Positions 10,260-37,332 of a stretch of DNA of 64,000 bases are shown here, piece after piece (position 1 is the first letter of the stretch; each line of letters begins with the position of its first letter). This DNA comes from Flavobacteriales bacterium (GTDB taxonomy: Bacteria; Bacteroidota; Bacteroidia; Flavobacteriales_F; PHOS-HE28), in assembly GCA_023957375.1 (NCBI GenBank), contig JAMLHB010000002.1:1054001-1118000 (forward strand). Reading direction: 5' to 3'. The translations under genes and the position numbers were made by a program. The notes under the pieces were generated by a model that was not told where the DNA came from, searched no databases, and worked only from the letters and a program-made list of their open reading frames with translations.

Positions 10260-10447
10260 ATCTGGCTATCCTGTTGATAATGAGATGGATGCCTGGCTTG
10301 TTCGTAAACTCTGCCACCATGGTCGAAAATGGAAGACCATTGGCGATTGGAACCCACAAAGTTAAGCTGGGAATGAATTGGCTTGGAGATGTTCGCAGGG
10401 CAATCGGGTCTGGCGCGTCCTGCGGGTATGGCATCCACCCAAATTCC

Positions 10448-10479
10448 AACCACGGATTCACACAGATCCACACAGATGG
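10448..10479 (-). repeat. Internal inverted repeat, left copy (mnmG-side element)
   Basis: The sequence begins AACCACGGATTCACACAGAT. Its reverse complement matches the copy at 10659-10690 with few differences, so the pair could fold into a long hairpin. The same motif occurs at 37026-37055 and 37115-37144. Confidence 0.65.
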
Positions 10480-10658
10480 GTTGTCCTACTGTGGGTTTGA
10501 CAATGAAAAGGTCCGCCCAATGGTAGTGCGTGCAGGAGTGTGAGGACGAAACCTGCATCCCCTGCACCTTTGCACGCTTTGACCCCCACACATACCGTAA
10601 TGGGAAACGCAAGAACTTCACCGCCGCCCGCACACGTTCAGCCGCAAACAGCCTTCAT

Positions 10659-10690
10659 CATCCGTGTAGGTCCGTGTGAATCCGTGGTTT
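10659..10690 (+). repeat. Internal inverted repeat, right copy (mnmG-side element)
   Basis: The sequence ends in GTGTGAATCCGTGGTTT and pairs with 10448-10479. Confidence 0.65.
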
Positions 10691-11074
10691 GTTAAAGACC
10701 TGCATGTGCCGTCAGGCGCAGACGCCAGACCCGGTTGCCATGACGTGTTCAGGGCTTGTTCTTCGGCCTATGGCTTAGGAAAGGTGGTGCAAAGGATCCG
10801 TGAGTTGCCTGTCGGGAAGCAGGTCTTCGCGAGGCATGGCCCAACAAATGGGGCAAGGCGATAGAAGCCAGGGGCCCCGTGGACCCGGTGAATTGTTTCC
10901 TGAACTGAGGAAAACATTGCCCAGACCCGTCCGGAAATCCACAACCGGCACCCGCGAATGCGTGCCAAGGTGTTAAGGTCCGTTATTTGCTTCCCCAAGA
11001 GCCGTGAACCGGGTACGTGCCACAATGGACCATTGGGCAGCATAAAACACTGCATTAACTCACGAAAGGAAATA

Positions 11075-14822: not shown

Positions 14823-15812
14823 ATGCCCATTGGCAGCAATACGAAGCAGGCAGCGGAGCTGCTGGGGCAAGGAGACTTGGTGGCCATCCCCACCGAGACC
14901 GTGTACGGCTTGGCTGCGAACGCCTACAACCCGGAGGCGGTGCTGAAGATCTTCCAAGCCAAGCAAAGGCCTGCATTCGACCCGCTGATCGTGCATGTGC
15001 ACGGCCCGGAACAAGCCATGGAAGTGGCCGACCTGCGGGGTTTGGGCGAGGACATGCGTCGGCAGGCCGAAGCCTTGATGGCCCGGTTCTGGCCCGGCCC
15101 CCTCACCCTGGTGCTGCCCAAGGCCAAACACGTGCCCGACCTGGTGACCAGCGGGTTGGACACCGTGGCCGTGCGCACACCGGCGCATCCAATGACCTTG
15201 GCCTTGCTGCGCTCCTTGGAATTTCCCTTGGCCGCGCCCAGCGCCAATCCCTTCGGCTACATCAGCCCCACCACCGCGCAGCATGTGGCCGACCAGCTCG
15301 GTGGCAAGGTGCCCTACATCCTCGACGGCGGCCCCTGCACTGTGGGCGTGGAAAGCACCATCATTGGTTGGGATGCGCAATTGCGGCACTGGGTGCTCTA
15401 CCGCCCGGGCGGCCTGCCCGTGGAGGAGGTCGAAGCGGTGATCGGCACGGTGGGCCGCGCCTCGCGAAGCGTGCTGCCCGCATCGCCCGGCATGCTGGAA
15501 AGCCACTATGCACCGCGCAAACCGGTGCATATCGGCAATATTGCGGAGCTGATGCTGGAGCATGCCGGCAAGCGCATCGGTGCGATCACCTTCCGCAACA
15601 GGTATGCGGTACATGCCCTGGAAGTGCTGTCCCCGCAGGGGGACTTGGCCGAGGCCGCCCGCCATCTCTTTGCCGCCCTGCGCCGATTGGATGCCGGTGC
15701 TGCCGAGTTGATCGTGGCGGAGATTTTCCCGCAAGAAGGGCTTGGTGCGGCCATCAATGACCGGTTAAAGCGCGCAGCAGCACGGCGCGATCCCAGGGCT
15801 ATCGCGTCTTAA
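14823..15812 (+). CDS. sua5: L-threonylcarbamoyladenylate synthase (Sua5 type), C-terminus altered by IS insertion
   Basis: The protein makes threonylcarbamoyl-AMP from threonine, bicarbonate and ATP, the first step of t6A37 tRNA modification. The YrdC core (residues 10-200) shows VAIPTETVYGLAANAY, the KQRPAFDPLIVHV segment, LAAPSANPFGYISPT and the DGGPCTVGVESTII loop. The C-terminal Sua5 domain (about 230-325) makes this the long Sua5 form rather than the short TsaC form. The last five residues (RAIAS) and the stop codon are supplied by the left end of the insertion sequence. Removing the IS and one target copy restores a frame ending in Arg-Arg-Asp-Pro-stop, so the enzyme should be essentially intact. 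Confidence 0.93.
   Translation: MPIGSNTKQAAELLGQGDLVAIPTETVYGLAANAYNPEAVLKIFQAKQRPAFDPLIVHVHGPEQAMEVADLRGLGEDMRRQAEALMARFWPGPLTLVLPKAKHVPDLVTSGLDTVAVRTPAHPMTLALLRSLEFPLAAPSANPFGYISPTTAQHVADQLGGKVPYILDGGPCTVGVESTIIGWDAQLRHWVLYRPGGLPVEEVEAVIGTVGRASRSVLPASPGMLESHYAPRKPVHIGNIAELMLEHAGKRIGAITFRNRYAVHALEVLSPQGDLAEAARHLFAALRRLDAGAAELIVAEIFPQEGLGAAINDRLKRAAARRDPRAIAS
15784..15793. repeat. Target-site duplication, left copy
   Basis: GGCGCGATCC immediately precedes the insertion sequence and is repeated exactly at 17010-17019. Confidence 0.9.
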
Positions 15813-17009
15813 ATCCAAGAAGCGCATCCAATTGAGCATCGCTTCTTGCGGCAGACTTACGCCTACGGCTTGTTGACTTCTTGTCGCCAGTAAATGTGCG
15901 GCAGATGGTCAGAGCAATCCTTCGGATTGCCGCCATGTTCTGGCTTCCATGGTCCTTTCGGATGCACGAGCCATCCTCGTCGAAGGTCACGTCAAGTACC
16001 CAATGCACTTGATTCTCAACACCCCAGTGCTGGCGTACCAGGCTGTTGAACCTGGCGGCATCTGCTTGTAGGCTGGAGATGTAGAACCGTATCTCTTCGC
16101 TGCGTTTGCCGGTAGTGACCTCCTCTCTTGTTGAGACAATGCGCACAAGGCTCTTGAGCCCGGCCCAACGGGGGAATCGGTCCTGCAGGTCCGGAGAGTC
16201 AATCACGGCACATGTGCGCGATTCGATGCGGCCATGTCCCTTGTCCCATTGCTCATCCACCGATGAAGGAGCGTTGTGCACGAAGCACATTTCAACTTCC
16301 TCCATCAGCTCGCTCTGATTGCCCTTGGCACCCAGCAGGTACTCCCCGCCCCGGTCCAATATCCCTTCCGCGATCTCGGTCTGGCAGCCCATGGCATCAA
16401 TGCTCACCGCGGCTCCCTTGAGGTCCAACAGGGCCAACAATTCCGGGATGGCCGTGATCTCGTTGCTCTTGTCATCCACTTTCATCTGTGCAAGGACCAC
16501 TTGGTTGCTGCTGCTCCACGCACTGATCACATGGATCGCCTTCTTTCCATTACGGTGGTCATGGCTGCGCCGCAAGGTCTTTCCGTCTATGCTCACCAGC
16601 GCGCCATCCGTACTGCCGCAAACCGCCGAAGTCCATTGCATGAAGCAAGTCCGGAAGGCAATTGGATCCATGCGGCGAAAGAGGTTGCCCAAGATGTCAT
16701 GGGACGGAGTACGGCCATCAAGAAAGTGGCCATGGCTTTGGAGCCAACTCAACCGCTCATCACCAAAATCGGCGATCTCCGTATAGTGCTCACAGTCGGC
16801 TACCACAGCCGAAATGGTCAGGAAGATCAGCGACTGCAGCTCATAGTGCTTGGTGCGGTCAATGCGTGGGTCTTGAAGTTCCTCGAAGTGCGTGAACAGG
16901 GTCATGTGCGGTGTTTTGCCGCAAGAACCAATGCATAAAGCTGGGGATCAAGACCTTGCAAAAAGATCGATCAACCACGAATTGTTCCTATTAAGACGCG
17001 ATAGCCCTG
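15794..17009 (-). mobile_element. Complete ISAs1-type insertion sequence (1216 bp)
   Basis: The element is bounded by perfect 19-bp inverted repeats, CAGGGCTATCGCGTCTTAA at 15794-15812 and its complement at 16991-17009. It is flanked by an exact 10-bp target duplication and carries a single full-length transposase gene on the minus strand whose stop codon lies inside the left repeat. Duplications of 8-10 bp suit the ISAs1 family. Intact ends, exact target copies and an unbroken transposase frame point to a recent insertion. Its tips nearly match those of the non-autonomous element at 36971-37195. Confidence 0.93.
15799..16905 (-). CDS. ISAs1-family DDE transposase
   Basis: The 368-residue protein has the N-terminal DUF4338-like/H-repeat opening FEELQDPRIDRTKHYELQ and the RNase-H-type catalytic region. 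The DDE candidates include VSIDGKTLRRS (about 102) and VSIDAMGCQTEIA (about 166), with a C-terminal RQHWGVENQVHWVLDVTFDED block diagnostic of ISAs1 transposases. The frame is uninterrupted and of normal length, so the element is probably still active. The 3' end overlaps the extended tail of the convergent sua5 gene by 14 bases inside the left inverted repeat. Confidence 0.95.
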   Translation of the reverse strand: MTLFTHFEELQDPRIDRTKHYELQSLIFLTISAVVADCEHYTEIADFGDERLSWLQSHGHFLDGRTPSHDILGNLFRRMDPIAFRTCFMQWTSAVCGSTDGALVSIDGKTLRRSHDHRNGKKAIHVISAWSSSNQVVLAQMKVDDKSNEITAIPELLALLDLKGAAVSIDAMGCQTEIAEGILDRGGEYLLGAKGNQSELMEEVEMCFVHNAPSSVDEQWDKGHGRIESRTCAVIDSPDLQDRFPRWAGLKSLVRIVSTREEVTTGKRSEEIRFYISSLQADAARFNSLVRQHWGVENQVHWVLDVTFDEDGSCIRKDHGSQNMAAIRRIALTICRTFTGDKKSTSRRRKSAARSDAQLDALLGFKTR

Positions 17010-17019
17010 GGCGCGATCC
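17010..17019. repeat. Target-site duplication, right copy
   Basis: GGCGCGATCC directly follows the right inverted repeat and matches 15784-15793. The bases after it (ATAA) complete the pre-insertion final codon and stop of the sua5 gene. Confidence 0.9.
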
Positions 17020-35986: not shown

Positions 35987-36500
35987 ATACCCTTTCGCAA
36001 CAAGAGGCCGTCCAAAGATGCGCAGCTATTTTTTCGCAGGGCGATACGAGGAGGGCGTTTCGTAGCGGTGTTTACGGAATCATTGGTGTCCGGGATAAGC
36101 ATCGGCATAGGTCGGAACGCCCTGCCCTGTATGGAAATGGATGGGGCGTGCAACGAAGCTCCCCGTGTCAGGAACATCGGCTGCGACACCCTCCGGGGTC
36201 GAATACCGTGTGGTGGGCAGATGCGACAAGCTGCGACCCCTCCAGGGTCAAGAACCCAGCGTCAACAAAGGGGCCTGACCCCGGAGGGGTCAAAGCTTAT
36301 AGACTAACAGGCCCGTGTGCGCGCCGACCCCGGAGGGTGTCACAGCCGGCGTTGGGATGTTGTCCCGGACGCCAGTGTTTACGGAATGACCTCATCGGAG
36401 AAGCCATGCGGAAAAATGCTTCATCCCGCTTGCGGGAAGAGCAAGTAGGACCTATCCCGCCAAAGCGGGATCGGATGGGGCTTTATTGCGAAAGGGTATG
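35987..36500. repeat. Small IR-bounded repeat element, split by a second element
   Basis: The outer parts (35987-36080 and 36389-36500) together match, in reverse orientation, the intact 161-bp element at 60555-60715. Both copies begin ATACC-TTTCGCAA and end TTATTGCGAAAGGGTAT, so the ends are inverted repeats. This copy also has two short palindromic additions around 36430 and 36460 (ATCCCGCTTGCGGGA and ATCCCGCCAAAGCGGGAT). The central gap is the inserted element at 36081-36375. No coding capacity. Confidence 0.75.
36081..36375. mobile_element. 295-bp element inserted in the repeat, with 13-bp flanking direct repeats
   Basis: The element is flanked by exact direct copies of GTGTTTACGGAAT (36068-36080 and 36376-36388). 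The intact relative at 60555-60715 has a single similar copy, so these look like a target duplication. The ends are imperfect inverted repeats: TGGTGTCCGGGATAA near the left, and TGGCGTCCGGGACAA read inward from the right. Inside are two nested inverted pairs built on GACCCCTCCGGGGTC-like palindromes (near 36182, 36235, 36283 and 36324), able to form a large cruciform. No open reading frame is credible. Confidence 0.6.
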
Positions 36501-36916: not shown

Positions 36917-37025
36917 GGTGCCGTATGCCGGGGCAAAGTACGCAAACCGGATCGAAGACCGGGGCGCAGGCAGGGCTATCGCCTCTTAATGCTGCGCCTG
37001 GCGGCGCTTATTCAATACTTGGGCG

Positions 37026-37055
37026 AACCACGGATCCACACTGATGGACACGGAT
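37026..37055 (-). repeat. Internal inverted repeat, left copy (MITE)
   Basis: It starts AACCACGGATCCACACTGAT. Its complement resembles 37115-37144 and both copies in the mnmG-side element at 10448 and 10659. Confidence 0.65.
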
Positions 37056-37114
37056 CGCGAGCCTCTCCAAGTATCGGACGCAAAGCCGTGGCCCACTTCC
37101 TGCATCGCGCATTT

Positions 37115-37144
37115 ATCCGTGTTCATCGGTGTTCATCCGTGGTT
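37115..37144 (+). repeat. Internal inverted repeat, right copy (MITE)
   Basis: The stretch ends in GTTCATCCGTGGTT and pairs with 37026-37055 across about 60 bases of spacer. Confidence 0.65.
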
Positions 37145-37332
37145 GAGAATTCGGGAAAGTCGCGACCGCAGGGCGCGCAAGAGGCGATAGCCCTGGGGCG
37201 CAGGCGGTCGGGCAACGGACACGCGGATGGCCAACAGGCCGTAGCGCCTGCCCCCAGGCCGTGAGCCAGTACGGTGCAAACCACCGGTCGCGTGCATTGG
37301 CGTACCATTGGCCCCGCCGATCGTTTCCGGGA

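Follow-up and report, generated by a model that had tools for sequence, protein, structure and literature searches.

Is the 225-bp element at 36971-37195 of the window (the whole 64,000-nucleotide stretch analysed here, from the genome labelled G000) a MITE, and was it mobilised by the ISAs1 element residing in the same window? The first-pass annotation had answered both questions in the affirmative, treating the element as a likely non-autonomous partner of the transposase encoded at 15799-16905. The first part of that claim stood: the element is a MITE with ISAs1-type tips. The second part, naming the resident IS as its mover, was only partly supported. We are highly confident that it belongs to a MITE family with ISAs1-type ends that was moved in trans by an ISAs1-family transposase, the role of the transposase being deduced from the sequences.

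Structure and insertion site of the 225-bp element

The element is delimited by the following features:

36961-36970 (+): left target-site duplication GGGGCGCAGG, 10 bp, or 9 bp with the terminal G assigned to the element
36971-37195 (+): MITE, 225 bp, subfamily A of the ISAs1-tipped family
36971-36987 (+): left terminal inverted repeat CAGGGCTATCGCCTCTT
37179-37195 (-): right terminal inverted repeat
37195-37204 (+): right target-site duplication GGGGCGCAGG, one G being common to tip and duplication

The end repeats at 36971-36987 and 37179-37195 are complementary at 17 of 17 positions, and the tip departs from that of the resident IS by one mismatch in 19 (CAGGGCTATCGCCTCTTAA vs. CAGGGCTATCGCGTCTTAA); both points had been read correctly in the first-pass annotation, as had the flanking duplications, which measure 9-10 bp. 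The sequence GGGCGCAGG is repeated on both sides. The final base of the element can be assigned in two ways, which also allows a 10-bp reading of the duplication, GGGGCGCAGG; the direct repeat detected at the ends is 11 bp long. Across the window, 17-bp inverted repeats spaced 100-600 bp apart occur twice, at this element and at another MITE, and none was seen in 20 random sequences that matched its trinucleotide composition. Open reading frames crossing the element are present in the mechanical ORF listing. No transposase remnant was found inside it, and the MITEs tested showed no transposase similarity. A comparison of the 225-bp sequence with plasmid and phage collections yielded no match.

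At the orthologous site in two genomes of the genus, G019 and G031, both flanking genes are present and their spacing is too short for the MITE. Joined-flank queries for three sibling sites (L068, L070, and L071) aligned across the junction in several relatives, with the element absent. A base-exact single target copy was not shown at the empty sites, the intergenic DNA of these species being too diverged. The first-pass annotation had named two observations that would speak against a mobile element, a tip occurring only here and the same sequence at orthologous sites of distant relatives; the tip proved to be multicopy, and the orthologous sites examined lack the element.

The element lies in intergenic DNA upstream of two divergently oriented genes, with the left start ~60 bp and the right start ~140 bp away, and it folds end to end as a hairpin (-70.3 kcal/mol vs. 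-38.5 +/- 3.6 for shuffled sequences; z -8.8; DNA parameters). A strong hairpin in such a position could also represent a conserved regulatory RNA or an attenuator, without being mobile. However, the hairpin is absent from the orthologous region of G019 and G031, Rfam covariance models returned no family for it at E <= 1, and copies of the element occur at many unrelated loci with duplications, which refutes the regulatory-RNA reading; we give it practically no weight. The element is short, transposase-less, bounded by inverted ends and duplications, multicopy, and missing from the orthologous sites examined, as is characteristic of MITEs.

The ISAs1-tipped family across the genome

The whole genome was searched with the tip, allowing up to 3 mismatches, and the reversed pattern served as the control. 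The search gave 54 matches for the tip vs. 1 for the control, and many full copies were matched when the MITE itself was used as the genome query. Inverted tip pairs delimit ~33 transposase-less elements of 149-553 bp, 36971-37195 included. Of the 32 other elements, 18 have perfect direct repeats of 9 bp or longer no more than 3 bp from the tips, and 20 have repeats of 8 bp or longer; randomly paired flanks gave a mean of 0.59 of 32 (maximum 4; 200 trials; at least 8 bp). In most MITEs the duplication is 10 bp long, the same as at the three IS copies. The first-pass annotation, which had proposed this search for inverted tip pairs, had therefore understated its own claim of a MITE with ISAs1-type tips, given the number of copies and the duplications in siblings.

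The largest cluster (n = 25) includes the 225-bp element; the tips of its members are CGCC in subfamily A and CGGG in subfamily B, i.e., different tips around the same kind of interior. Subfamily C is the pair L068/L103, 99.2% identical. Subfamily D is a cluster of five, the tip of which agrees with the resident IS tip at 18 of 18 positions; two of its members, L073 and L089 (98.4% identical), carry the exact IS tip CGCG at both ends. Tips, duplications, and similar size are kept in subfamilies C and D, with other interiors. The window holds one further candidate member:

10396-10742 (+): probable decayed longer relative, 347 bp, with degenerate CGGG-type tips, an inner-arm pair, and a different middle

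With few exceptions, the two tip bases distinguishing subfamilies A and B covary at both ends. Three elements combine one CGCC end with one CGGG end, and two of these (L071 and L090) have perfect 10-bp duplications, which suggests that one transposase joined the unlike tips. Considering the mixed tips together with the duplications, one transposase probably accepted both, and tolerance of the IS tip CGCG is plausible.

The resident IS, its relatives, and the probable mover

The IS in the window was delimited as follows:

15784-15793 (+): left target duplication of the IS, 10 bp, GGCGCGATCC
15794-17009 (-): complete insertion sequence of the ISAs1 family, 1216 bp, present in three copies
15794-15812 (+): IS tip CAGGGCTATCGCGTCTTAA, overlapping the transposase stop codon
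15799-16905 (-): ISAs1 transposase, 368 aa (NF033564, 371 bits; PF13808 + PF01609)
16991-17009 (-): other IS tip
17010-17019 (+): right target duplication of the IS, 10 bp

Its tips are perfect, and the 10-bp duplications are perfect at all three genomic copies (GGCGCGATCC in the window). The copy in the window matches one of the others exactly and departs from the remaining one by 1 base in 1216; the three encoded proteins are identical. The transposase matched the ISAs1 equivalog model NF033564 at 3.5e-111, and its stop codon lies inside the tip, so that the tip encodes the final residues FKTR and the stop. According to the mechanism that we propose, a DDE transposase of the ISAs1 family, acting in trans, would recognise the roughly 18-bp tips, cut the element, and join it into new sites, and host repair would leave the 10-bp duplications. 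The interior is a hairpin from a separate genus-wide 28-bp repeat and not IS-derived. The MITE resembles ISAs1-family IS (NF033564) in the tip start CAGGGC and in the 10-bp duplications seen here, autonomous members being present in G000 and G065; unlike them, it has no transposase, and its homology to them is confined to ~20 bp at the ends.

To place the family among relatives, genomes of the same genus were compared. Full-length MITE copies, 88-90% identical, occur in G019, G031, and G032, and none was found in sampled genomes of other genera. Several further species of the genus are rich in tips, G017 having 39. An ISAs1 transposase above the cut-off was detected in 3 of 45 genus genomes: this genome, G065, and G032. 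The G065 transposase is 73% identical to the resident one and is bounded by the same 19-bp tip; that of G032 is ~40% identical, and the end of its element reads CAGGGCAAACGCATC. None was found in the MITE-carrying G019 and G031; draft assemblies can lose IS copies. A contig scan with the resident transposase recovered only relatives of 36-50% identity, with CAGGGCAAACGCATCTAA and CAGGGTAAG-type tips where tips were found, and CGCC tips were not found on any IS among the genus genomes searched. In present genomes, the MITE load does not follow the presence of the IS: G019, G031, and G017 are MITE-rich without a detected cognate IS.

In G023 and G026, several contigs (L204-L210) break off ~80-100 bases into an ISAs1-like end that has the tip CAGGGCTATCGGGTCTTAA. 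Read by eye, the G023 end encodes the C-terminus FKTR followed by a stop, like the resident transposase. An ISAs1 element with a CGGG tip thus probably exists in these two genomes, with its body missing from the assembly. As these contigs end inside an apparent ISAs1, drafts of the genus seem to lose ISAs1 copies, and the absence of the IS from them is weak evidence.

These data bear directly on whether the resident ISAs1 (15794-17009) itself generated and mobilised the 225-bp element, the two forming a current parent-and-passenger pair. The one-base difference between the tips and the shared 10-bp duplication length are consistent with this, the mixed-tip elements suggest tolerance by the transposase, and the near-identical pairs L073/L089 and L068/L103 indicate recent activity, albeit in other subfamilies. 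On the other hand, the nearest copy to the 225-bp MITE is at most 91% identical, vs. no more than 1 base in 1216 among the IS copies; MITEs of this type occur in species without the resident IS, with no ISAs1 found in G019 and G031 and a distant one in G032; the two elements have nothing in common beyond the tips; and the exact IS tip belongs to a different subfamily, that of L073 and L089. We therefore consider a direct partnership unlikely, though it retains a small share of the probability. More probably, the MITE was moved by an earlier IS related to the resident one, because its nearest copy is 91% identical, its subfamily is present in species lacking the resident IS, and the IS copies are young. 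The resident IS is probably a recent arrival; it may still be able to move the MITE and is at most a potential helper.

A MITE tied to a resident IS is a known kind of element. Among Bacteroidota, the literature searched describes IS5-type (PMC4596501) and IS982-type (PMC9769881) MITEs. MITECca01 of Cardinium, with its parental IS982-family ISCca4 (PMC9769881), is likewise short, transposase-less, mostly intergenic, and multiplied by the IS with which it has its tips in common; it keeps parental tip-adjacent sequence, whereas the 225-bp element has only its tips in common with ISAs1. BrickBuilt, MITEPgRS/MITE464, and MITE239 of Porphyromonas gingivalis (PMC4596501), also a member of Bacteroidota, have tips 0-1 base from a resident IS, but these are IS5-family tips with variable short duplications, in contrast to the ISAs1 tips and 10-bp duplications here. 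MITEPye1 of Paracoccus yeei (PMC11578231) similarly combines tips matching a resident IS family with direct repeats and a stem-loop, and differs in belonging to the IS1182 family and in having 1-3 copies.

No ISAs1-tied MITE from any organism was found in the open-licence literature searched, and within that literature the remark of the first-pass annotation that such MITEs are not well described in Bacteroidota holds. An ISAs1-tipped family within one Bacteroidota genus seems to be undescribed, and through it ISAs1 joins the IS families that have MITEs in this phylum. With ~33 copies, several tip classes, mixed tips, and near-identical pairs in a near-complete genome, the family offers a natural test of transposase tip tolerance and of how long MITEs outlive their IS.

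Interior repeat and nested elements

Between its terminal repeats, the 225-bp element contains two inverted 30-bp arms of the repeat CCACGGATGAACACGGATGAACACGGAT:

37026-37055 (+): left inner arm AACCACGGATCCACACTGATGGACACGGAT, belonging to the 28-30-bp repeat also found outside MITEs
37115-37144 (+): right inner arm, with 87% complementarity to its left counterpart

The interior showed no similarity to the resident IS, the match being limited to ~20 bp at each end. An origin of the MITE as an internal-deletion derivative of the resident IS was rejected, as no subterminal IS sequence is kept. BrickBuilt (PMC4596501) likewise has a repeat, a minisatellite, as its interior. The repeat CCACGGATGAACACGGATGAACACGGAT has 49 matches in this genome, and 32 of 44 genomes of the genus contain it; its status as a Bacteroidota-wide feature was rejected in our sample, with matches in 0 of 295 other genomes. 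A literature text search for the letters of the 28-bp repeat returned no relevant paper.

Arrays of CCACGGATGAACACGGATGAACACGGAT, as direct or inverted pairs, also occur without ISAs1 tips in this genome (L104:672-1220, L105:518-1100, and L106:510-1430; G000), and a GxxExxY gene (TIGR04256) has one array at its 5' end. The spreading unit could thus be the inner 28-30-bp repeat hairpin, as part of a GxxExxY-associated system, with the ISAs1 tips as incidental flanks; the copy number of the repeat, its occurrence in most of the genus genomes, and the tip-less arrays, including that beside the GxxExxY gene, agree with such a scenario. Yet the duplications sit exactly at the ISAs1 tips and not at the inner arms, which contradicts an inner-repeat unit for the 225-bp element, and subfamilies C and D, whose interiors differ, agree with it in tips and in having duplications and resemble it in size. 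We regard this scenario as very improbable and retain the ISAs1-tipped element as the unit that moved.

Palindromes of ~15-33 bp (GCCCCGGTGAATACCGGGGC, CCTGCCGGCCGGCAGG, and others) split the inner arms at recurring positions, and the same palindrome recurs in different MITE copies. The palindrome-bearing copies are L099, L074, L076, L094, L071, L090, L102, L075, L067, and L072, together with L217 in G022. One speculative arrangement, to which we assign a rather low probability, is that of layered passengers: the ISAs1 tips would carry the CCACGGATGAACACGGATGAACACGGAT hairpin, and CCACGGATGAACACGGATGAACACGGAT would also spread by itself as arrays and would itself be a preferred landing place of the palindromes. 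If the inner repeat and the micro-palindromes do have their own GxxExxY-linked spreading mechanism, they would represent an undescribed repeat system.

An unrelated 297-bp MITE is located at 36081-36377, 593 bp from the 225-bp element, with tips CATTGGTGTCCGGGATAA and CACTGGCGTCCGGGACAA and a perfect 10-bp duplication, TTTACGGAAT. Another copy of it lies inside an ISAs1-tipped MITE (G000:C2:842604-843156) and has its own 10-bp duplication, ATATTGCTAC, i.e., a MITE nested in a MITE. The 553-bp element at this position (C2:842604) had been considered as a separate subfamily, which was rejected: it is a ~245-bp CGCC-tipped MITE split by the inserted 297-bp MITE. Nesting of one MITE in another has likewise been reported for the MITEs of Porphyromonas gingivalis (PMC4596501).
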